Shown piece after piece: positions 1 to 21,137 of a stretch of 64,000 nucleotides of DNA. Location: positions 62,001 to 126,000 of the forward strand of contig DVLT01000046.1 of the NCBI GenBank assembly GCA_018715345.1, read 5' to 3'. Position 1 is the first letter of the stretch. Each line of letters starts with the position of its first letter. The notes under the pieces were generated by a model. That model was given only the letters and a program-made list of their open reading frames with translations. It made no database searches and was not told the origin of the DNA. The position numbers and the translations under genes are program-made. Source of the stretch: Candidatus Onthocola gallistercoris (GTDB lineage: Bacteria; Bacillota; Clostridia; Lachnospirales; Lachnospiraceae).

Positions 1-879
1 CATAATACAGCCAATGATGCTTCAGCAGCGAATGAAGTGGCCTATATGATCAGCAATAATAATGAGGTATCCTTCCATTATGCTGTGGATGATAAGGAGA
101 TTGTGCAGGGCGTTCCGGAAAATCGGAATACGTGGAACGCCGGAGATGGTAACGGCCCTGGAAACAGGAAGTCCATATCGGTGGAAATCTGTTACAGTAA
201 GTCGGGCGGCGACCGGTTCATTCAGGCTGAGAAGAACGCTGCCGAGTTTGTGGCGAGGATCCTGAAACAGCACGGATGGGGCATAGACCGCGTGAAGAAG
301 CACCAGGACTGGAATGGAAAATATTGTCCACACAGGACTCTGGATATGGGATGGGATCGCTTCTTAAATATGGTTAAGAGCCACATGGATGGAAATACTC
401 AGCCGTCCGTTCCTCAGACACCGTCGAAACCCTCCGGATCCACGCCGACCAACCAGACCGTACATGCTTATTACCGCGTTCGAACCCAGAAGCACGGCTG
501 GCTTCCGGAAGTCACAGATCTGTCCGATTATGCCGGCTGGGAGGATTCCTCAATCACTGATGTGGCCATCCGGGTATCTGATGGCTCTGTCAAGTACAGG
601 GTACATACCGGAGGCCGCTGGCTGCCTTATGTGACCGGCTGTAATATCAATGATGATCAGAACGGCTATGCCGGCATTCATACGCCTATTGATGCTATCG
701 AAGTGTATTATTATACTCCGGATAGCATCCGGCCGTATAAGCGGGCTAAGTACCGTGTGGCGCCGGTCGGCGCCAGCTATTATCCGTATCAATATGACAA
801 TGAGATAGGAAACGGACAGGATGGTTATGCAGGAGATCTGAAGAACAAGATCGGAAAATTCCAGCTGTGCATTGAGTAA
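1..879 (+). CDS. N-acetylmuramoyl-L-alanine amidase (phage-type endolysin), 5' truncated by window edge
   Basis: Frame open from base 1 (HNTANDASAANEVAYMISNNNEVSFHYAVDD...NAGDGNGPGNRKSISVEICYS), amidase_2-like motifs, C-terminal wall-binding-like repeats; terminator-like hairpin at 905-935. Confidence 0.85.
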   Translation, partial: HNTANDASAANEVAYMISNNNEVSFHYAVDDKEIVQGVPENRNTWNAGDGNGPGNRKSISVEICYSKSGGDRFIQAEKNAAEFVARILKQHGWGIDRVKKHQDWNGKYCPHRTLDMGWDRFLNMVKSHMDGNTQPSVPQTPSKPSGSTPTNQTVHAYYRVRTQKHGWLPEVTDLSDYAGWEDSSITDVAIRVSDGSVKYRVHTGGRWLPYVTGCNINDDQNGYAGIHTPIDAIEVYYYTPDSIRPYKRAKYRVAPVGASYYPYQYDNEIGNGQDGYAGDLKNKIGKFQLCIE

Positions 880-937: not shown

Positions 938-1044
938 ATGCCCAAAATGTAAGAAGATTAGATGATGCTGGAAACAAACAGACGTGTGTGGTATAATGCT
1001 TCTGTTGCCGCCTCCTATACTGGCACGGAAGGGAGGTGTCTTGC

Positions 1045-1131
1045 GTGGATATTATTATTTCTCTTACTGTTGCCGTTACGGCAGGTGTGATTTGCCATCT
1101 CATCTGCAAATGGTTGGACGGTGACAAGTAA
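1045..1131 (+). CDS. 28-aa hydrophobic peptide (VDIIISLTVAVTAGVICHLICKWLDGDK), candidate type I toxin
   Basis: GTG start 6-8 nt after ggaagggaggtg SD; TATAAT at 992-997; single TM segment with charged C-terminus; not in the supplied ORF track because of size. Confidence 0.6.
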   Translation: MDIIISLTVAVTAGVICHLICKWLDGDK

Positions 1132-1183
1132 CCGGCAACCAGCCTATGGGTTTAAGCCTTCCCATTGCCAAAAGTAGGAATAG

Positions 1184-1214
1184 AAAACCCCGGAGGTTGC
1201 AGCTCCGGGGTTTT
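1184..1214. terminator. Bidirectional terminator shared by peptide mRNA and a candidate antisense RNA
   Basis: AAAACCCCGGAG-GTTGCAG-CTCCGGGGTTTT, perfect 12-bp stem with A/T tracts on both sides. Confidence 0.8.
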
Positions 1215-1254
1215 CGTTTGCCATCTTGCATGGACTTATTACTTCTCTTTGCCT
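1185..1254 (-). ncRNA. Candidate antisense antitoxin RNA (about 70 nt)
   Basis: Minus-strand TTGCAT-N17-TGCTATAAT promoter-like sequence (TATAAT at 1266-1261), followed by the shared terminator; transcript ends inferred. Confidence 0.45.
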
Positions 1255-1460
1255 ACTGGCATTATAGCATATGCGATTCTAAAATGCAATATTCGCAGGG
1301 ATGTGAATTATCTACAGAAATTCGTGTGATATTTCGTGTTGCATCATCTGGAAAAATACCGTTAAATATGGAAGAAACACGATTATTTCGGCAAAGTAAA
1401 AACGCCGACAAACCTTGAATTTATCGGCGTTCCCCGTGTTTCGTGTATCCTTGAAAGAAA

Positions 1461-9194: not shown

Positions 9195-10802
9195 ATGAAG
9201 AAAAAACTCGCTTTACTCATGTGTCTTGCGTTGTTGGCAACATCTGTGATCGGATGTAGCAGCGGCAGTGGCGAGACAACATCCGGCAGCGACACAACAG
9301 CAGCCGGAGAGACGACAGCAGCAGCCGATGATGGCAGCATACCTGCACATAAGGACACGTTGATCATCGGTACAGACGTTGATATCAACAACCTTGATCT
9401 GCAGGCTCAGCAGGACCAGATCAATAATATCGTCCTGAAGAACACCCATCAGGCTCTGGTATGGTTCACCAACGAAGGTGAGTTTGAACCGGGCTTGGCT
9501 ACAAGCTGGGAATTCGTAGATGATACACATATCAAGTTCACGCTTCGTGACGATGTGTACTTCAACGATGGAAACAAGACTCCGATGACAGCGGAAGACG
9601 TTAAGTTCACGCTCGACATGGCTATGGAAAGCGTATCCGCTCCGAACCTGACAGGTTATGTTTCCTGTACAGTTGACAGCGACTATGAGTTCACCATCGA
9701 GATCGAATCCTACAACAACGAGTTCGTTCAGTCTCTGGCTTCCCAGAACCTGGCTATCCAGTCCAAGAAAGCTTATGAGGATGGCGTAGAAGATCCGTAC
9801 TACATTGGTACTGGTCCTTACAAATTCGACTCCTGGGTACAGGGCGAATATTGCCGTCTGACTAAGGTTGACGATTACTGGGGCGCTACCACAGAAGAAG
9901 AAGTTCCCGATTGGGCTGCTCCTGGTGTGGCTGAGACCATCGACTTCAAACCTTATGTTGAGGCTTCCTCCCGTGTAATCGCATTACAGGCTGGCGAGAT
10001 CGACGTTTGTGTAAACCCGCCGATCAACGAACTGTCCTTCCTGGAAGGCGATGACAACATCACTGTTTACGAACAGGCTGGTTCCAGATTGTTCTACTTC
10101 GCATTCAACGTAACAAAGGAACCGTGGGACAATCAGACACTTCGTCAGGCTGTTGCCTGCGCGATCGACAGAGACGCCGTTCTTCAGGCAGCTGTTGAAG
10201 GCAAAGGTACTTTACAGACAACGATCCTTAACCGTGGTCTGTGGGGATTCTATGATGACATGGAAGGCTTTGACTATGATGTAGAAAGAGCAAAAGAACT
10301 TATGGCTGAAGCAGGTTATCCGGATGGCGGCATCACCACCACTCTGACCTATGCAAACAGTTCACCGTACGAATCCATCGCAACTGTTATCCAGGCCAAC
10401 CTGGCAGAGATCGGTATCACTGTAACATTGTCACCCTGTGAAGATGCTACTCTGAAATCCACTTGTGTAAACGGCGATCAGGAACTGTTCCTGTGGAGAT
10501 GGAATGAGGATTCCAAGGTTGACTTTGTATATCGTGACCTGTTCTACACAGGTTCCGGTTCCAACTACCACCACTACAGCGATCCGCATGCTGATGAGCT
10601 GACAGATTTGGTTGCTACAGAAAAAGATCCTGACAAACGTCTTGAGTACGCTCAGGAACTTCAGACATACTTGGTAGATGCTTGTCCGCAGGTTCCGCTG
10701 TACATAGCTAACCTGGTTATTGCTTACAACAGCAACTTACAGGGTCAGTACTTCTACGGCGGCGGCAACCACTACTGGGCACACGCTTACATTGCTGAAT
10801 AA
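9195..10802 (+). CDS. Peptide ABC transporter substrate-binding lipoprotein (SBP family 5)
   Basis: Lipobox LATSVIGCSSG; ATSWEFVDDTHIKFTLRDDVYFNDG typical SBP_bac_5. Confidence 0.95.
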   Translation: MKKKLALLMCLALLATSVIGCSSGSGETTSGSDTTAAGETTAAADDGSIPAHKDTLIIGTDVDINNLDLQAQQDQINNIVLKNTHQALVWFTNEGEFEPGLATSWEFVDDTHIKFTLRDDVYFNDGNKTPMTAEDVKFTLDMAMESVSAPNLTGYVSCTVDSDYEFTIEIESYNNEFVQSLASQNLAIQSKKAYEDGVEDPYYIGTGPYKFDSWVQGEYCRLTKVDDYWGATTEEEVPDWAAPGVAETIDFKPYVEASSRVIALQAGEIDVCVNPPINELSFLEGDDNITVYEQAGSRLFYFAFNVTKEPWDNQTLRQAVACAIDRDAVLQAAVEGKGTLQTTILNRGLWGFYDDMEGFDYDVERAKELMAEAGYPDGGITTTLTYANSSPYESIATVIQANLAEIGITVTLSPCEDATLKSTCVNGDQELFLWRWNEDSKVDFVYRDLFYTGSGSNYHHYSDPHADELTDLVATEKDPDKRLEYAQELQTYLVDACPQVPLYIANLVIAYNSNLQGQYFYGGGNHYWAHAYIAE

Positions 10803-10872
10803 GACGACAATACACTGACAGAGTTGTTTGTGATGCTTGAATAGTAAATCAAAAGTTATTCTGTCTGGAACA

Positions 10873-10903
10873 GGTTTGCGGGCGGTAACAAGCCCGCAAA
10901 TTT
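10873..10903 (+). terminator. Intraoperon stem-loop after the SBP gene
   Basis: TTTGCGGGC-ggtaacaa-GCCCGCAAA then TTTGTTT. Confidence 0.6.
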
Positions 10904-10973
10904 GTTTCTAGGACATTATTCCAGTTATTGGCAGACGGCAACTGTTCATAAAAGAATAGGAGTGTATAACAAT

Positions 10974-11909
10974 ATGATCAAATACATAGTAAAACGTTTG
11001 CTCCAGCTGATTCCGGTTATTTTAGTCACATCATTCCTTATTTACTGGGCGATGAACCTGACCAGCGGCGACCCCGCGCTTCTGATCGCTGGTGACAAGG
11101 CGACTCCGGAAATGTTAGAGCAGATCCGTGAAGAAAAGGGACTGAACGATCCGTTCCTTGTTCGTTATGGCAGATATATGCTCGGTATGATCCAGGGCGA
11201 TATGGGTGAATCCTATATCACAGGCAAAGACGTATTCCAGACATTCATGGAAACGCTTCCGAACACGCTGATGTTAGGCGGCGCGGCCGTACTTATCGCG
11301 GTCATCATCGCTTTGCCTCTGGGTATCTATACAGCGATCCATCAAAGTACCTGGAAAGATAACGTGGGCATGGTCTTCGCCCTTTTCGGAACAGCGATGC
11401 CCAACTTCTGGCTCGGCCTTATGCTCATCCTGCTTTTCTCCCTGAAACTGGGCTGGTTCCCGTCCGGCGGTAAAGCAGGCTTTTCAAGCGTTGTCCTTCC
11501 GGCTGTCACAGTAGGTTATGGACTCGCCGCGCTGATCATGCGTACGACCCGTTCCTCCATGCTTGACGTTATCCGTCAGGACTATATGACGACTGCCCGG
11601 GCCAAAGGATGTTCCGAACGTCAGGTCATCTTCAGACATGGCCTGAAGAACGCGCTTATCCCGATCATCACCGCGATCGGTATGCAGATCAGTATGATCA
11701 TGACCGGTTCCGTTCTGGCCGAGACCGTATTCTCCTGGCCAGGTATCGGTCGTCTCGTAAACGATTCTATCGCGCGGCGCGATAATGAAATGGTTACCGG
11801 CGCGATCATCATGTGCAGTATCTGTATGTGTCTGATCAACCTGGTCGTTGACCTTGTTTACGCATTCTTTGATCCGCGTATCAAAGCACAGTACGCTAAG
11901 AAGGGGTGA
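10974..11909 (+). CDS. Dipeptide/oligopeptide ABC transporter permease (DppB/OppB type)
   Basis: YIVKRLLQLIPVILVTSFLIYW; EAA-like loop TTRSSMLDVIRQDYMTTARAKGCSERQVIFRHGLKNALIP. Confidence 0.95.
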   Translation: MIKYIVKRLLQLIPVILVTSFLIYWAMNLTSGDPALLIAGDKATPEMLEQIREEKGLNDPFLVRYGRYMLGMIQGDMGESYITGKDVFQTFMETLPNTLMLGGAAVLIAVIIALPLGIYTAIHQSTWKDNVGMVFALFGTAMPNFWLGLMLILLFSLKLGWFPSGGKAGFSSVVLPAVTVGYGLAALIMRTTRSSMLDVIRQDYMTTARAKGCSERQVIFRHGLKNALIPIITAIGMQISMIMTGSVLAETVFSWPGIGRLVNDSIARRDNEMVTGAIIMCSICMCLINLVVDLVYAFFDPRIKAQYAKKG

Positions 11910-11916
11910 TTGAGAG

Positions 11917-12813
11917 ATGGCAAAAAATACAAAAGCAGTTGCAGCAGGTAATGATGTTATTAAGAGCCGTTCTCAATTCGGAGAAGTATTCCATCGGCTT
12001 CTGAAGAATAAAGGCGCGGTCATTGGTATGATCTTCCTTCTCGTTTTGGTGATCATAGCGCTCATCAGCCCGCTTGCCTTTGATTATGAGACACAGGTTA
12101 TCGGCCAGAATATGGCAGATCGTCTGCAGGGACCGAGCGCAGCCCATTGGTTTGGTACAGATGAATTTGGCCGTGACTTGTTTGCCCGTATCATGTGGGG
12201 CAGCAGATACTCCCTGATCATCGGTTTCGGCGCCGTTACCATCGGCCTCGTAGTCGGTACGATTCTTGGCGCCATCGCCGGGTTCAAAGGCGGTATCTGG
12301 GACCAGCTGATCATGCGTTTCATCGATATTTTCTATTCTATCCCGAACATCATGATCGCGGTTGTTATCGTATCTGTTCTCGGAACAAGTACAGTGAACC
12401 TTGTTATCGCGCTTTCCTTCTCGGCGGCGACCGGCTTCTGCCGGGTTGTGCGGGCGGCCGTTATGACTGTCCGTGACCAGGAATATGTTGAGTCTTCTTA
12501 TGCCATGGGCCTTCCCACATGGAAGATCATCGCGAAGCATATCCTTCCCAACTGTCTGTCTCCGATCATCGTTCAGTATACGCTGCAGGTAGGTACAACG
12601 ATCATTTCCGCATCTTCACTGAGTTTCCTTGGTATCGGTGTTCCCGCGCCGGCTCCGGAGTGGGGCGCCCTGCTGTCCGGCGGACGGAGCCGTATGCGTG
12701 ACGCAAGTTATCTCTGCGTCCTTCCCGGTCTCGCGATCCTCTTTACAGTACTTGCGCTGAACTTACTTGGCGATGGTTTACGTGACGCCCTTGATCCAAA
12801 GCTTAAGAAATAG
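11917..12813 (+). CDS. Peptide ABC transporter permease (DppC/OppC type)
   Basis: HWFGTDEFGRDLFARIMWGSRYSL; YAMGLPTWKIIAKHILPNCLSPIIVQ. Confidence 0.95.
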   Translation: MAKNTKAVAAGNDVIKSRSQFGEVFHRLLKNKGAVIGMIFLLVLVIIALISPLAFDYETQVIGQNMADRLQGPSAAHWFGTDEFGRDLFARIMWGSRYSLIIGFGAVTIGLVVGTILGAIAGFKGGIWDQLIMRFIDIFYSIPNIMIAVVIVSVLGTSTVNLVIALSFSAATGFCRVVRAAVMTVRDQEYVESSYAMGLPTWKIIAKHILPNCLSPIIVQYTLQVGTTIISASSLSFLGIGVPAPAPEWGALLSGGRSRMRDASYLCVLPGLAILFTVLALNLLGDGLRDALDPKLKK

Positions 12814-12825
12814 GTGGTAGAAAAT

Positions 12826-13839
12826 ATGGCAGATTTAGTTCTTGATATAAAGGATTTAGTTGTTCATTACGAGACAGAAGATGCCGATGTCCATGCGGTC
12901 AACGGTATCAGCTTCCAGCTGGGTAAACAGACGACGCTTGGTCTGGTTGGCGAGACAGGCGCGGGCAAGACAACGACCGCCCTTTCCATCCTGAACCTGG
13001 TGCCCAATCCTCCGGGAAAGATCAAAAGCGGAAGCATCGTACTGGACGGAGTAGATGTATTGAAGTTATCACAGGAAGAACTGGAAAAAGTCCGTGGTAA
13101 TGATGTGGCAATGATCTTCCAGGATCCCATGACCGCTTTGAACCCGGTTATGACGGTTGGAGAACAGATTGCTGAAAGTGTTGAGCTCCATGAGAAGCTG
13201 TCCAAACAGGAAGCTATGGAGCGTGCAAAAGAAATGCTTGAACTGGTTGGTATCGCCGAGAACCGGGCTTACGATTATCCCCATCAGTTCTCCGGCGGTA
13301 TGAAACAGCGTGTGGTTATCGCCATCGCGCTGGCATGTAATCCGAAGCTGCTCATCGCCGACGAACCGACAACGGCTCTGGACGTTACGATCCAGGCTCA
13401 GGTTCTTGAGCTTATGAAAAATCTTATCCGTGAATACGATATGTCCATGATCCTCATCACCCATGACCTGGGCGTTGTTGCCGAGATCTGTGATGACGTG
13501 GCCGTTGTTTACGCCGGACGTATCGTTGAGATCGGTACGGCAGATGATATATTCAATCATACCCATCATCCGTACACGGAAGGTCTGTTCGATTCTCTCC
13601 CCAACCTGAAGGAAAGAGGAGAGGAACTTCAGCCCATCAAAGGTTTGATGCCCGACCCGTCCAACCTGCCGCCGGGATGTTCTTTCGCTCCCCGGTGTCC
13701 GTACGCGACAGATGCCTGCTCAAAGAAAGTTCCTCAACTTCGTCCGGTCGGCGGAACGAGCAGCTCGAAACATATGGTTGCCTGCGACGCGTACGATGAT
13801 CCGAAATTCTGCTTAAGGAGGAACAAAGATGGCAAATAA
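12826..13839 (+). CDS. Peptide ABC transporter ATP-binding protein (DppD type)
   Basis: Walker [43 protein letters not shown]. Confidence 0.95.
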
Positions 13840-14800
13840 GATAATTCTTGAAGTAGATAATCTGACAAAGTACTTTAATACTCCTGGCGGACTTCTTCAC
13901 GCGGTCGATGGTATCAGCTTTAAGCTTGAAGAAGGAAAGACTCTGGGCGTTGTAGGTGAGTCCGGCTGCGGTAAATCCACCACGGGCCGTACCATCCTGA
14001 AACTGCTCCAGCCCACATCCGGAAAGATCATCTTTGACGGCGAGGATATCACAAGCTACGGTATGAAGAAGATGAGACGTCTGCGTCAGGAAATGCAGAT
14101 GATCTTCCAGGACCCGTTCTCCTCTCTGGACCCGAGACAGAACGTTATGCAGCTGATCAGTGAGCCGATCATCGAGCACAAGCTTCTGAAAGGCCGCGCG
14201 GCGATCGAAAAACGTACAAGAGAACTGATGGACATCGTAGGTCTGGCTCAGAGATATGTTAATGTATATCCCCATGAGTTGGACGGCGGACGCCGTCAGA
14301 GGATCGGTATCGCCAGAGCCCTGGCGGTAGACCCGAAACTGATCGTCTGCGACGAGCCGGTATCCGCTCTGGATGTATCCATTCAGGCGCAGGTACTGAA
14401 CCTTCTGAAAGAACTGCAGCGTGAATACGGTCTGACCTATATCTTCATCACCCATGACCTTTCCGTTGTTAAATACTTCTCAGATGATATCGCGGTTATG
14501 TATCTTGGACAGATGGTTGAGAAGGCGCCTTCCGACCTGCTGTTCCAGAAACCGACCCATCCCTATACCAAAGCGCTGCTTTCCGCTATTCCGATCCCGA
14601 CAGTCGGAAAAGAAAGACCGCAGCGGCAGCTGATCAAAGGTGAGATCACGTCTCCGGTCAACCTTCCGGACGAATGCCGTTTCAACAAACGTTGTGATTT
14701 CGCCCATGATATCTGCAAGAAGGGCAATCCGTCCCTGAAAGAGATCGCTCCGGGCCATTTCGTCGCATGTTCACGAGTAGACGAGCTCATGGACAAATAA
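13829..14800 (+). CDS. Peptide ABC transporter ATP-binding protein (DppF/OppF type)
   Basis: [54 protein letters not shown]. Confidence 0.95.
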
Positions 14801-14891
14801 TAGGCTGAGACTGGAAATGTGTGAATGACTCCGGTTTTGGAGCATTCCGGCGACAGTCTTGTAATCACTTTATCAAGGAGGTTTTTATAAG

Positions 14892-15716
14892 ATGTTCAAC
14901 TCAATTTCCATGACCCAAATGGCGGCATCCATCGCGAAAGCTCTGGGTGTGGAGGCTCCAAAACTGGCCAGAGAGCCAATCCCGCAGGTAGAAAAGCTGA
15001 TCGAGAACACCTGCGGTAAACCGGTGGTGGACCGGATTATGATCTACAATCCGGATGCTATAGGTATGTGGTTATACCAGAAGTACACCAAAGAGTTTGC
15101 ACCTGTTATGGAACGTACTCAGTTAGCAGTACCTGTAGCAACGGTCATGCCGTCAGTCACGCCGGTGTGTTTCGGTTCGATGTATACAGGGGCATTTCCT
15201 GAAGAGCACGGTATCATGAAATATGAAAAACCGGTCATCAAGATCGATACATTGTTTGACGCCATGGTAAGAGCCGGCAAGAAGGTGGCGCTCGTGGCTG
15301 ACGATGATTCCAGTATGTCCATGATCTTCAAAGAACGTGATATTGACTATTATATTATGCCGTATGATGGTGAATGTGTTGAAAAGGGACTTGAACTGAT
15401 CAAAGAAGATAAATATGATATGGTCATTGTCTACAATATGGAATATGATGACTGTATGCATGATACAGTTCCGGAATCCGATGTATCTCTTGCGGCAATG
15501 AAACATCATATTGATGCGTTCGCAAAACTGGTTGATGCCGTGAAAGAAAACTGGGCTTCTCATGATACATTGGTATGCTGGGCAACAGACCATGGCATCC
15601 ATGTGGAAGGGAATCCCCAGAGCGAATATTATACCCATGGCAATCATGGCGATTATATTCCAGAAGATATTAATATCATGCACTTTTATGGTACTTGTCC
15701 GAAGAAGGATAGATGA
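14892..15716 (+). CDS. Alkaline-phosphatase-superfamily / type I phosphodiesterase-like protein
   Basis: PSVTPVCFGSMYTGAFPEEHGI, LVADDDSSMSMIF, WATDHGIHVEGNPQSEYYTHGNHGD metal-site motifs. Confidence 0.75.
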   Translation: MFNSISMTQMAASIAKALGVEAPKLAREPIPQVEKLIENTCGKPVVDRIMIYNPDAIGMWLYQKYTKEFAPVMERTQLAVPVATVMPSVTPVCFGSMYTGAFPEEHGIMKYEKPVIKIDTLFDAMVRAGKKVALVADDDSSMSMIFKERDIDYYIMPYDGECVEKGLELIKEDKYDMVIVYNMEYDDCMHDTVPESDVSLAAMKHHIDAFAKLVDAVKENWASHDTLVCWATDHGIHVEGNPQSEYYTHGNHGDYIPEDINIMHFYGTCPKKDR

Positions 15717-15741
15717 TAAAAGTCAGATAGTTTAGAACAAA

Positions 15742-15780
15742 AACCGCCGTTCTCAGGGAGAGCTGAGAGCGGCGGTTTTG
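15742..15780 (+). terminator. Terminator between convergent operons
   Basis: aaaaccgccgttctcagggagagctgagagcggcggttttg. Confidence 0.75.
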
Positions 15781-15830
15781 ATTTCATGGAAAAATATGCG
15801 GATCGTATCCCCCGATTTTTATTAAAGATC

Positions 15831-16595
15831 TTAGACGATGATCAGACGGGGAATCTGTTCTTCGATCAGCTGTTTAGCCTCTGGAGCGATCCCTCTATCT
15901 GTGATCAAAGTATGGACAAGGGAAAAGGGGGCTGCGAGCATAAAAGCTTTATTGGACAATTTGCTGCTGTCACAGACAATGACTGTTTCATGGGAGGACT
16001 CGATAACCCGCTCAATGAGAGGGACTTCATCATCATTATCCATATAACAGCCCACCGTTGGATCCACCGCATCCATGCCGATAAAAGCACGATCGATCTT
16101 GATCTTCCGCACATAGTCCTCGGCGGCATAACCACGGAGTGTATAATAGTTTTTACGGAGTTTTCCGCCGGTGACAGTGACGTCTATATTTTTGATAAAA
16201 GTGGAATCAGCGGCCACCAGCAGATCATTTGTGATCAGATTCAGTGAAGATAAACCGTCCAAATAGGGAAGCATGGCCCGAGTGGTTGTACCGGCAGAAA
16301 TGAATACCGTTTCGCCGGCAGTGATCAGAGAAGCAGCAGCTTGGGCAATGTCATTTTTTTCAGTCGTATGGCTGTTTTTTTTGCCTTTATAGGATGGAAC
16401 AGCAGTCGTATCATCCATGATCAGAGATACGCCGCCCCGTGCCGCAGCGATCCGGCCCTGCTGTTGCAATTCGATAAAATCTCTGCGGACAGTGGCTTTG
16501 GATACGCCTAGGTAATCCATGATCTCACGATTGCTGGCAAAATGGCGGTGTTTCAAGTATTCCATGATTTTAGCGAAACGTTCTTCTTTGATCAA
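15831..16595 (-). CDS. DeoR-family transcriptional regulator of the frl-type operon
   Basis: MIKEERFAKIMEYLKHRHFASNREIMDYLGVSKATVRRDFIELQQQGRIAAARGGVSL; SIS-like sugar-P domain. Confidence 0.9.
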   Translation of the reverse strand: MIKEERFAKIMEYLKHRHFASNREIMDYLGVSKATVRRDFIELQQQGRIAAARGGVSLIMDDTTAVPSYKGKKNSHTTEKNDIAQAAASLITAGETVFISAGTTTRAMLPYLDGLSSLNLITNDLLVAADSTFIKNIDVTVTGGKLRKNYYTLRGYAAEDYVRKIKIDRAFIGMDAVDPTVGCYMDNDDEVPLIERVIESSHETVIVCDSSKLSNKAFMLAAPFSLVHTLITDRGIAPEAKQLIEEQIPRLIIV

Positions 16596-16657
16596 AATTT
16601 ATCTTCCTTTCTGAAAAAGCTTTGGATCGCGCTTAAACTTGGTCCACAGCGCAAATT

Positions 16658-16681
16658 AAGCTGATGCGTCAGCATCAGCTT
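16658..16681. promoter_or_regulatory. Perfect 10-bp inverted repeat between frlD-like gene and deoR
   Basis: AAGCTGATGC-gtca-GCATCAGCTT; no U-tract. Confidence 0.6.
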
Positions 16682-16700
16682 AGTATGCAGCCATTAATGT

Positions 16701-17609
16701 TCAGTCAAGGATGGCTGCCTCATGTCCAAAAGCTCCAGGAAGCATGCAGGTTTTTCTGGCCAGCAGATTGCCGACACACATGCTTTGGAGAATAAGAGAA
16801 GAGAAGTAGTCCTCTTCATCGTCCGATGCTGTCAGTTGTACAGGCGTCTGTGCGGACAATTCCCGGTATATTTTCCGCCCTTGCATATAAGATGTGATGA
16901 AACCGGTGATAAAAGAATCTCCGGCGCCCAGAGTATCTGCGATCAGTCCGTCCGGGTTGTAAGGCGGCTTAGTATAAAAATGTCTGCCGTCATAGACGAT
17001 GGCGCCCCGTTCGCCGATGGTGGAAATAGCCATAAAGCATCCCAAGGATACGGCAAGTTTCAGGTACGCTTTAAGATCATCTTCCGACAGGTCTTTGCCG
17101 GACAAGAAAGCAATCTGGACAAACGGACATATACGTCGAAGGACAGCTTCATCCCATTCGTCGGAGAAGTCATAAAGGACAGGAACTCCAGTGGACTGGA
17201 TCAGGGGAAGCTGGTCATCTATAAAGCTGTAGCAGCTTGTATGTACCAGATCAAAAGTACGTATGTGATCCAGCCGCTCAGGCGTCAGCTGCAAAGGCGT
17301 TGCCTTAACACTTCCGCAGTCGTTGTCATCGGTGATGATCCGATCGCCATTTACGATGCGGGTGGTGGAACGGCCGGTTTCACCGCCAGGAATGACTGGA
17401 GACATGGATACATCCACCCCTTCTGCCATCAGACTTTGACGGACCAAAATGCCTTCCGCATCATTGGCCAAAACCCCCATATAGGCGCTCTCATAACCCA
17501 ACTGTCGGGCATAGACAGCGAAATTCACACAGTTGCCGCCTGGATACATGACCTTTTTATGAAGATAACGGTCGACGACATTGTCGCCGACCCCTATAAC
17601 ACGCAGCAT
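16701..17609 (-). CDS. frlD: PfkB-family sugar kinase, fructoselysine 6-kinase-like
   Basis: VIGVGDNVVDRYLHKKVMYPGGNCVNFAVYARQLG; GAGDSFITGFI; adjacent to frlB-like gene. Confidence 0.75.
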   Translation of the reverse strand: MLRVIGVGDNVVDRYLHKKVMYPGGNCVNFAVYARQLGYESAYMGVLANDAEGILVRQSLMAEGVDVSMSPVIPGGETGRSTTRIVNGDRIITDDNDCGSVKATPLQLTPERLDHIRTFDLVHTSCYSFIDDQLPLIQSTGVPVLYDFSDEWDEAVLRRICPFVQIAFLSGKDLSEDDLKAYLKLAVSLGCFMAISTIGERGAIVYDGRHFYTKPPYNPDGLIADTLGAGDSFITGFITSYMQGRKIYRELSAQTPVQLTASDDEEDYFSSLILQSMCVGNLLARKTCMLPGAFGHEAAILD

Positions 17610-17629
17610 ATATTTGCCTCCTTGACGGA

Positions 17630-18658
17630 TCAATAATCCATCTGACGATAGTAACGACGGGCTGTAAGCGGATGATTCCGTTCTTTTTCAAGATGGCAGC
17701 TCAACCGTTCTGTGATGGCATAAGTAACCAGCGGAGAAACGATGGCGCGGAACTGTTTTTCTGAGAAGGGCAGTTCCACCTCAGCTGTATCAAATACGCT
17801 GATATGAGGTGTGATATTTTTGACAAATTTCATGACCCGATCCATAAGCGGCCGTGTTTCATCGTCGCCGTAGAAGAGGATCATACTTGTATCTTTCTCA
17901 CAGATCTCAAGAAGTCCGTGGAAAAATTCGGCAGCATGGATGGATTGGGCTTTAACCCACTGCATTTCTTCCAGAACACACATGGCATAATCATAAGCTT
18001 CGCCCCACAGCATACCGGAACCTACCACCATGTGATAATCCAGATCTTTGATGTCTGCCGCCATGGCAGCGCATTTATCATCATAAAGCTCTTTTGCTTT
18101 GACAAGATAGCCTGTCAGTGACTGGTATTCGGAAGCAAACTGATCGTATTCCGGAAAATCTCCGGCATTTTTAAGGAAACGTCCCACGACAAAGTTCAGA
18201 TATGTATAGATGGCTTCGCACAGACAATCATCCTCAGCAAAGCTGTAAAATTTGTAGTCGGCATATTCACATACCGGTGTATTGTCGTTGGAAACATAGA
18301 CAAAGGTACGGGCGCCGGCTTCTTTACAGTATTTCGCAGCAGCAACGATTTCTTTAGTATTTCCGCTACGGGTGGCAAAGATGCAAATGGAATCCTTTGA
18401 AAATCTTTTATGCCCTGCGGCCAGAAATTCGGCAGCGATCATGCTGTATGCTTCAACCTTGGATGTGGTCGTATCCAGCCAGTATTTCATGGGAAGTGTA
18501 TGGGCATAGGTTCCGCCGCAGCCGATAAAGAAAAGGTTGGAGTAGCCCTCCTCACATACTTTATCCACTGCGTTTTCGATCTCCGGTCTTAACGCGATCG
18601 CATCATTGACAACTTTTTCGTAGCGAGGAATGTCGAAATTGTAGATCATTGTTTTCAT
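17630..18658 (-). CDS. frlB: SIS-domain deglycase, fructoselysine-6-phosphate deglycase-like
   Basis: FIGCGGTYAHTLPMKYWLDTT, FATRSGNTKEIVAAAKY, AAEFFHGLLE, C-terminal NHPLTARRYYRQMDY. Confidence 0.8.
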   Translation of the reverse strand: MKTMIYNFDIPRYEKVVNDAIALRPEIENAVDKVCEEGYSNLFFIGCGGTYAHTLPMKYWLDTTTSKVEAYSMIAAEFLAAGHKRFSKDSICIFATRSGNTKEIVAAAKYCKEAGARTFVYVSNDNTPVCEYADYKFYSFAEDDCLCEAIYTYLNFVVGRFLKNAGDFPEYDQFASEYQSLTGYLVKAKELYDDKCAAMAADIKDLDYHMVVGSGMLWGEAYDYAMCVLEEMQWVKAQSIHAAEFFHGLLEICEKDTSMILFYGDDETRPLMDRVMKFVKNITPHISVFDTAEVELPFSEKQFRAIVSPLVTYAITERLSCHLEKERNHPLTARRYYRQMDY

Positions 18659-18698
18659 CCTTTCTTAGTGGTCCGTTTGATATTCATATTAAAAGGCA

Positions 18699-18827
18699 CT
18701 TAGGCCGACATAACGGTTGTTGGGGGGAGTATGCCGGCCTAAGGAGATTAGGTCCATAGAGAACCGATATGAAACATATTGATTCTCTATGCACCTCTAT
18801 CCTATGATATTTTGAAAGAATTGTCAA
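18699..18827 (-). promoter_or_regulatory. frlB promoter, 37-bp palindrome at the predicted +1 region, and leader hairpin
   Basis: Minus strand TTGACA (18827-18822) N17 TAGGAT; CATAGAGAA-ccg-ATATG-aaa-CATAT-tga-TTCTCTATG (18755-18791); CTTAGGCCG.../...CGGCCTAAG hairpin (18699-18743). Confidence 0.65.
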
Positions 18828-18875
18828 TAGATTATTCAAAAAAATTTAAAAAGATTCAAAAGGGTTCAGCGAGGT

Positions 18876-21137
18876 TCAAAGGTTGGAACGCAATTTTGTC
18901 CCCTTTGTATCCCGGTGGCTGAGCTTTAATTTGTTCAATACAATGTCCCTGTCTTTATAAAGAATACGGGTTTCGGAACCTCTGCTCAGCAAAAAGACAG
19001 AATCCAGCGCATCCTTATCGGCCAGTTTGATCCCACGGACGCCGATGGCTGCTTTTTTCTTTTCCGGCACTTCCCGGATATCAAAGCGGAGAAAAATGCC
19101 GTCACGGGTCTGGAGAACAACATGACCGATATCATCAGATAAAGGGATAACAGCGGCAAGCCGGTCGTTTTCCGCCAATTTGGTAGCCTGACTGGTCCGT
19201 TTGGCCACATCGAACTGACCACCGTCCACTTGTTTTAACATGCCTTGCTGGGAGGCAAAGAGAAGACGGCAAGATTTCACGTGTTCCAGGGAATCCACAA
19301 ACAGGATATTTTCCTCGGAGCTGTCATAATTGCCAAAATTGTCAATGGGGATGGCTTTATCACGGAATTTGCCAAAGGGCAGATCAGCTGCCTTGATCAG
19401 ATGGAGTTTGCCGGTATCGGTGAACAGACAGATCTTGTCCGTGTTCATACACCGGAACACATAACGATTTTCTGCCAGAGCAGCCTCCTGATTGCGTTCA
19501 AAAGTGGGCATATCGATGGTCTTACAGTATCCGAAACGGTCCATCAGGAAAGTGACTTCCATGGCTTCCATTTTCTTTTCTTCAAAAATGACGGCCTCGG
19601 CATTCTCGATGGCTGTACGGCGGGGACGGGCAAAGGATTTTTTAAAAGCCTTCAGTTCCGAGGCAATGACCCGGGTCATGCTGGCATGATTTTCCAAGAT
19701 ATCTTTGTACGTGGCAATCCGTTTTAACGTTTCCTCATGTTCCTTCATCAACGCCTGGATCTCCAGGCCGATCAGTTTATACAGCCGCATCTCCAGGATG
19801 GCAGATGCCTGCTTTTCCGTGAAATGGAGTTTTTTTGCATCCCTTTCAGACTTTTTTGTCTTGAAACGGATTCCTTCCGTTTCGCCAGAGATCAGACAGG
19901 TCTTCGCCTGAGCCATATTTTTACTTCCACGGAGGATTTCGATGATCAGGTCGATGACATCGCAAGCTTTGATCAGACCTTCCTGGACCTCGCTTTTTTC
20001 TTCTTCTTTGATGAGAAGATGACTGTATTTACGGGTGGCGATATCATACTGAAAATCCAGGAAGTAGTCCAAAATGGTCTTTAGCCCCATGGTTTCCGGA
20101 CGGCCATCCGCCACTGCCAGCATATTGACGCTGAAAGTGTCCTCCAGTCGAGTCTTTTTATATAAAAGATTTTTCAGATATTCCACATCTGCGTTTTTCC
20201 TGAGTTCCAGAACGATGCGGATGCCCTCCTTGGAAGACTGGTTGGATATATCTACGATATCCGGCGCCTTTTTCGATTCTGCCAGCTGGTATATATCATT
20301 GAGAAATTTGCCGATGCCGGCGCCGATCATGGTGTAGGGGATTTCGGTGATGACGAGCCGATCCCGGCCGCCTTTTATCTTTTCTGTTTCAACTTTACCC
20401 CGGATGTGGAGCCTCCCTTGGCCAGTTTCATATATGCTTAATAGTTCGTCTTTGTTGGTGATGATGCCGCCGGTGGGAAAATCCGGACCGGGCATGTACG
20501 CCATCAATTCTTCTGTGGTCATGGTGCCTTTTTTCATATAGGCTAGGGCCGCATCGATCACTTCCCCCAGATTATGGGGCGGGATACTGGTGGCCATGCC
20601 AACGGCGATGCCTTCTGCTCCGTTGATGAGCAGATTGGGGATTTTTACCGGAAGGACTTCCGGCTCTTTTTCTGTCTCATCAAAGTTGGGGACAAAGCCC
20701 ACCACGTTTTTATCCAAGTCGGTCAGAAAGGCATCCTGGGTGGCTTTCTGGAGGCGGGCTTCCGTATAACGCATGGCAGCCGCCCCATCTCCTTCAATGG
20801 AACCAAAATTGCCGTGACCGTCCACCAGAGGCAGCCCTTTTTTAAAGTCCTGACTCATGACGACCAGAGCTTCATAGATGGAGCTGTCCCCATGGGGATG
20901 GTACTTACCCATCGTATCACCGACGATACGGGCACATTTCCTGTAAGGTTTATCATAGCGGATCCCCAGTTCATACATATCATATAAAGTTCTTCGTTGC
21001 ACCGGTTTTAATCCGTCACGCACATCCGGCAGGGCACGGGCGATGATGACGCTCATGGCATAATCAATATAGGATTTCTGCATGACATCGGAATATTCGG
21101 TCCGCAGTATATGTTCGCTGTTATTATTGGATTTCAT
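18876..21137 (-). CDS. parC: DNA topoisomerase (ATP-hydrolysing) subunit A, GyrA/ParC type
   Basis: [47 protein letters not shown]; partnered with parE; topo IV rather than gyrase assignment is inferred. Confidence 0.85.

Follow-up and report, generated by a model that had tools for sequence, protein, structure and literature searches.

A module at positions 985–1290 of the window, by which we mean the whole 64,000-nucleotide stretch of Candidatus Onthocola gallistercoris DNA that was analysed, is very probably a type I toxin-antitoxin locus of the par/Fst type. This reading, including the extent of the module, comes from the DNA sequence: the anatomy of the region, an antisense copy of the toxin start that is matched locus by locus, and the same matching within single genomes all point to it, and from these we infer transcription, repression and toxicity. 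The first-pass annotation had proposed a par/Fst-like system at this place, and the proposal is supported by a conserved promoter and by the locus-matched start-region copy. The features of the module are as follows.

969–997, plus strand: toxin promoter, TGGAAA, 17 nt, TATAAT, with an extended -10 TG (10 of 12 matches)
1004–1214, plus strand: predicted toxin mRNA of about 211 nt (from where the -10 box lies and from the Rfam RF02442 alignment)
1004–1010, plus strand: 5' arm of the closure, GTTGCCG (own-locus complementarity above that of swapped pairs)
1011–1015, plus strand: anti-Shine-Dalgarno arm pairing with 1032–1036 (pair probability 0.79–0.84; own versus swapped z 2.8)
1031–1038, plus strand: Shine-Dalgarno GGGAGGTG, predicted to be paired (sequence reading, folding)
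1039–1065, plus strand: start-region repeat, toxin copy, from behind the Shine-Dalgarno to codon 7 (repeat score, co-variation)
1045–1131, plus strand: toxin open reading frame, GTG start, TAA at 1131, 28 codons, MDIIISLTVAVTAGVICHLICKWLDGDK (peptide family alignments A1 and A2)
1133–1139, plus strand: 3' arm of the closure, CGGCAAC, immediately after the stop codon (folding, co-variation)
1184–1214, both strands: bidirectional terminator, 12-bp stem with A/T tracts (sequence reading; present in homologues)
1184–1254, minus strand: predicted antisense antitoxin RNA of about 71 nt (promoter position and terminator)
1224–1249, minus strand: start-region repeat, antitoxin copy, giving RNA complementary to 1039–1065 (repeat score, co-variation, duplex energy)
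1261–1289, minus strand: antitoxin promoter, TTGCAT, 17 nt, TATAAT, with an extended -10 TGC

The TATAAT reported earlier at 992–997 is indeed preceded at 17 nt by TGGAAA and carries an extended -10 TG. As this promoter follows the terminator (904–929) in which the upstream amidase gene ends, the toxin constitutes a separate transcription unit. The 28-codon frame running from GTG at 1045 to TAA at 1131 was likewise verified; its product is a predicted single-pass membrane peptide of 28 residues and presumably toxic. Alignment of 51 family members yielded the consensus M-E-x3-SFL-x2-V-x-AGV-x-CHYI-C-KWLDGD, in which K-W-L-D is nearly invariant. Searches of the peptide against Pfam, NCBIfam, PHROG and PDB gave weak matches at most, and none in Pfam. 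Downstream, the perfect 12-bp stem with its A and T tracts is present as described, and homologues possess a terminator too. The minus-strand promoter was also recovered, with TTGCAT at 1289–1284 and TATAAT at 1266–1261 separated by 17 nt; its conservation in homologues had been suggested as a check, and a clear minus-strand promoter was found in 83 of 90 loci. The antitoxin promoter pattern TATGCTATAATGCCNNTAGGCAAA occurs a single time in the genome, and, allowing up to two mismatches, a similar pattern was detected in 29 of 250 related genomes and its reversed control in none.

The earlier reading had furthermore noted that the antisense DNA repeats patches of the toxin gene. A conserved repeat does exist, but it is neither of the two that had been named, TACTGGCA and TTTGCCATCT. 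The former (1254–1261) barely co-varies with the leader (z 2.3), and nearly all of it falls in the gap separating the -10 box from the predicted antisense start; the latter shows no co-variation (z 1.2). Both were rejected as antisense targets, as neither tracks its own locus convincingly in homologues. The repeat that had been overlooked is TCTTGCGTGGATATTATTATTTCTCTT (1039–1065) against TCTTGCATGGA-CTTATTACTTCTCTT (1224–1249), with 23 of 26 aligned bases identical and one gap. For each locus the toxin start region (-30 to +48) was searched against the DNA downstream of the stop codon; the window repeat obtains a score of 32, whereas the 99th percentile is 21 with shuffled sequences and 27 with swapped ones. 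The predicted duplex energy of the window RNAs is -45.2 kcal/mol (duplexfold). A degenerate start-region copy sits between terminator and convergent promoter in about 83 of the 90 loci, and a convincing copy is missing at six (about 7%). Most repeat pairs share a gap or mismatch just past the start codon, so that the repeat falls into two halves, reminiscent of DRa and DRb in par.

Evidently, the copy follows its own toxin. Over the 90 loci, whose start codons were assigned by rule and may be wrong in a few cases, the mean score was 32.2 for own and 15.5 for swapped pairs, and the summed own score of 2898 compares with 1410 ± 33 after permutation (maximum of 1561 in 20,000 permutations). Relatedness among the loci does not account for the result: against the copy of the closest relative by peptide, the own copy wins 79 times and loses 6 times, with 4 ties, and the mean swapped score exceeds 18 only where peptides are more than 90% identical. 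New loci gave z values of 41 (71 loci, named genomes), 26 (39 loci, viral contigs) and 11.7 (16 loci, order- and phylum-level searches), exact duplicates of the first set being excluded while the lineages overlap with it. Mean duplex energies were -38.6 kcal/mol for own and -22.5 kcal/mol for swapped pairs. The locus-matched signal is confined to -10 to +4 (z 24) and +8 to +30 (z 36); Shine-Dalgarno, leader loop and mid-ORF reach z 1.2–2.3, and +30 to +55 reaches z 3.7. The check on repeat conservation proposed in the first-pass annotation thereby finds its answer in the homologues, where the predicted opposing RNA reproduces the start of its own toxin in locus-matched form.

Such matching could in principle also arise if the copy were a neutral local duplication kept alike by gene conversion and not a functional antisense target. 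Conversion would be easy between copies less than 200 bp apart, but it would erase the small gap or mismatch that is retained after the start codon in most pairs; moreover, the copy is flanked by a conserved promoter and by the shared terminator and stops sharply after about codon 9, excluding the Shine-Dalgarno and the remaining reading frame. We therefore give this explanation hardly any credence and retain that of an antisense target.

The matching is also observed within single genomes. Of the genomes in the set, 15 contribute two to four modules; there the own antisense copy was the best one in 35 of 35 cases, and foreign copies of the same genome scored 16.4, close to what unrelated loci give. 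Among all the loci compared, the window's start region scores 35 against one foreign antisense RNA (L095) and 32 against its own. For pAD1 it was reported that RNA II gives no protection against the chromosomal paralogue, which was ascribed to divergent direct repeats (PMC7472228); judged from the sequences compared here, specificity by divergent repeats appears to be a family-wide pattern.

With respect to the structure of the toxin mRNA, the complementarity of GTTGCCG (1004–1010) and CGGCAAC (1133–1139) that had been pointed out is real, and the arms pair with a probability of 0.71–1.0 in a fold of 1004–1140. This closure co-varies by locus (summed own complementarity 623 versus 505 ± 10 for swapped pairs), with GTTACC/GGTAAC, GTTGTC/GACAAC, GCTACC/GGTAGC and GTTGCC/GGCAAC among the homologous pairs. 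As seen in window positions 1112–1139 and in the homologues, the 3' arm lies behind the stop codon in short toxins and within Asp-Asn codons in long ones: for peptides of up to 29 aa the closure partner begins after the stop in 65 of 74 cases, and for those of 30–36 aa it begins within the reading frame in 74 of 75, encoding a common C-terminal Asp-Asn. This dipeptide of the long-tailed toxins is suggested to reflect an RNA pairing element. The second proposed element, CGCCTCC opposite GGAGGTG, was confirmed, the Shine-Dalgarno core being paired with a predicted probability of 0.7–0.97 in the same fold; compared with shuffled leaders there was no clear difference (0.83 versus 0.79). Since the Shine-Dalgarno hairpin is nearly invariant and thus offers little co-variation, it constitutes weak evidence. 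When the full-length mRNA is folded, the Shine-Dalgarno is still paired, but with different partners, which leaves the exact mRNA fold uncertain.

The architectural marks of par are convergent promoters, a shared terminator, direct repeats and a hidden Shine-Dalgarno and 5' end, the U-turn not being universal (PMC7472228). The module displays convergent promoters, a shared bidirectional terminator, repeats covering the toxin start and predicted structures hiding the Shine-Dalgarno and 5' end. In pAD1 par/Fst of Enterococcus faecalis (RNA I/RNA II) the same convergent promoters and shared bidirectional terminator are found, together with direct repeats over the translation start, a 5' hairpin hiding the Shine-Dalgarno and a sequestered 5' end, and Fst likewise has a GUG start, a transmembrane peptide and a charged tail (PMC7472228). 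Unlike in par, the YUNR U-turn is absent from the terminator loop GUUGCAG and from its complement, as it is from some par homologues (PMC7472228). The predicted RNAs of 211 and 71 nt resemble in size those of Fst-Sm/srSm from Streptococcus mutans, whose transcripts are about 200 and 70 nt long with repeats over the start codon (PMC3543317). Type I modules of Clostridioides difficile (CD2517.1-RCd8 and others) also comprise convergent toxin and antitoxin RNAs, membrane peptides and a prophage location, with characterised toxins of 50–53 aa and long continuous complementarity (PMC6563280); the corresponding model NF047374 gave a best match of E 0.00027 and 21 bits against a cut-off of 60.

At the level of the peptide, the resemblance to Fst holds in part. 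A conserved tryptophan between transmembrane helix and charged C-terminus, a feature of the Fst/Ldr superfamily, is present, and a profile-profile comparison of the family with FstpAD1 and FstEF0409 (sequences taken from PMC8147318) gave a probability of 86.5 and, as a single comparison, E 4.6e-6 over 30 columns. On the other hand, the family lacks the essential proline of the PxxxG motif, showing A/S-V-x-A-G/S instead, and has a very short tail with a W-L-D-G-D end. Of the helix motif P/D/S/TxxxG, which most of the Fst/Ldr superfamily show, SxxxG occurs in some members of the present family, and the window peptide has AVTAG. The best full-length member match to NCBIfam NF033608 (Fst) reached 21 bits against a cut-off of 26, and none of 61 genomes exceeded this cut-off. 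A bridge is formed by streptococcal peptides from a pneumococcal plasmid and a satellite phage, which end in HYICKWLD or HYLCKWLD and share the layout (BLASTP of the window peptide against that of pSpnP1: 46% over 26 aa). Peptides of the streptococcal Fst-like loci differ in having an acidic helix residue and a charged tail of greater length. Overall, the sequences suggest that the peptide is a remote Fst relative and likely belongs to the Fst peptide family in the strict sense.

The predicted toxin mRNA of the window also aligns over the full length of Rfam RF02442 (SpF66 sRNA) at 1004–1225 with 29.9 bits and E 1.4e-5; Streptococcus relatives score 103–115 bits, and the window and Lachnospiraceae copies score 28–39, below the gathering score of 42. 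RF02442 covers Fst-like toxin mRNAs on the pneumococcal plasmid (L130:2957-3179) and in the streptococcal satellite phage (L134:1352-1592), and the SpF66 'sRNA' family therefore appears to be a toxin mRNA. Rfam matches to FsrA, ohsC and His_leader, located on or across the terminator hairpin, were far below their gathering scores and were discarded.

Because its anatomy matches that published for par and Fst-Sm, the module is taken to work like par. The toxin mRNA would be kept silent by the 5'-3' closure and by the hairpin over the Shine-Dalgarno, and the predicted 71-nt RNA from the convergent promoter would end at the same terminator. Carrying the copy of the toxin start region, it could pair with the mRNA at two places: at the shared terminator, and along about 26 nt that begin just past the Shine-Dalgarno, span the start codon and reach codon 7, where pairing would block ribosome binding. 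The toxin mRNA would presumably be stabler than the antitoxin, giving the module a role in keeping prophages or plasmids. The same RNA control might instead govern a membrane peptide that does not kill and modulates stress or membrane potential, which we consider unlikely, albeit deserving some weight. Deletion of Fst/Ldr loci gives no phenotype except loss of plasmid stability (PMC7472228), and the window peptide is missing the proline essential in Fst; yet a toxin is favoured by the several layers of silencing, by the occurrence on mobile DNA and by the likeness to Fst-Sm, whose induction is toxic (PMC3543317).

Phage genes lie upstream of the module. Host genes, e.g. for carbamoyl-phosphate synthase, precede genes for a VanY-type peptidase, minor capsid protein 2, a tape-measure piece, distal tail, tail and baseplate proteins, followed by a holin (PF04531, E 1.9e-28), a HicAB pair and the amidase upstream of the module. 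Among the proteins scanned, integrase, terminase and portal were not found, and the region consequently resembles what is left of a prophage, over a length of about 10 kb (L137 about 10600–20000, with holin, amidase and HicAB, and window 1–879). The module is best read as lying at the end of this remnant. Its position behind holin, HicAB and amidase might suggest an accessory holin-like or lysis protein beside the endolysin, with convergent promoter and repeat being incidental, and a holin family in PHROG is weakly matched by one of the peptides, at E 0.31 the best of any member. However, a genuine separate holin is encoded upstream, members of the family are found on small plasmids that carry few further genes, and a locus-matched antisense copy would have no role in lysis; we thus judge a lysis function highly improbable and keep to the toxin-antitoxin reading. 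The module occurs once in this genome. A tRNA-Gly lies downstream at 1460–1530; an attachment site at this tRNA was considered and dropped, no repeat of at least 14 nt being found between 1100–1800 and the 60 kb upstream. Nearness to a tRNA does not characterise the family, as one was present in the flanks read at only 10 of 110 homologous loci.

When 61 related genomes were searched at the DNA level, several complete modules were recovered, sharing 68–78% identity over up to 287 bases. The peptide profile (A1) matched 127 of 397 sampled genomes of the host family, with a maximum of eight matches per genome, 17 of 146 in an order-level sample (9 of them outside the host family) and 10 of 300 in a phylum-level sample (8 outside it), all genomes searched being drafts; these samples suggest that the family is sparser beyond the host family. 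Named carriers include Blautia, Mediterraneibacter, Roseburia, Lachnoclostridium, Lacrimispora, Pseudobutyrivibrio and Anaerococcus. On viral contigs 51 loci encode the peptide, and the module is carried by cryptic plasmids of 2.4–7.3 kb (Mogibacterium, Waltera, pTRACA41, pRGI00989). Each plasmid or inovirus module read has the same layout and a start-region copy. In the filamentous bajarodino virus 68 (Inoviridae; L127:2040-2132) the module is unannotated and overlaps an opposite-strand CDS annotated as a DNA-binding protein. Elsewhere, four tandem peptide matches spaced by about 400 bp (G727:C23:95580-96846) look as if repeatedly duplicated. Our literature searches, which covered the lists of Weaver 2009 and Fozo 2010 as given in reviews, returned no Fst-type modules in Lachnospiraceae; an Fst-like case in C. 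asparagiforme and a case in bolteae are reviewed in PMC6563280.

Some antitoxin genes stand alone. At 7 of 30 antitoxin loci examined no recognisable toxin was present within 400 bp; lone genes are L009, L010, L011, L021, L299, L301, L309, L310, L315, L318 and L322, L315 being the same locus as L009. They have a promoter and, mostly, a terminator and a start-region copy, and the RNA of L021 fits the toxin starts of other species at cognate level (score 34). One may speculate, as a possibility of rather low likelihood, that Lachnospiraceae harbour a large mobile set of par-like modules in which the start repeat serves as an address, allowing several of them to share a cell free of cross-talk, and in which toxin-less antitoxins are kept as protection from newly arriving elements; remnants of defunct modules would have the same appearance.

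About a third of the sampled genomes of this gut family carry a par-like module; together with those of plasmids and phages, such modules make up a large and little-charted family. With more than 200 loci, the co-variation of toxin start and antisense copy provides a natural data set for the evolution of RNA antitoxin specificity and, furthermore, a simple sequence test for genuine candidates of type I modules.
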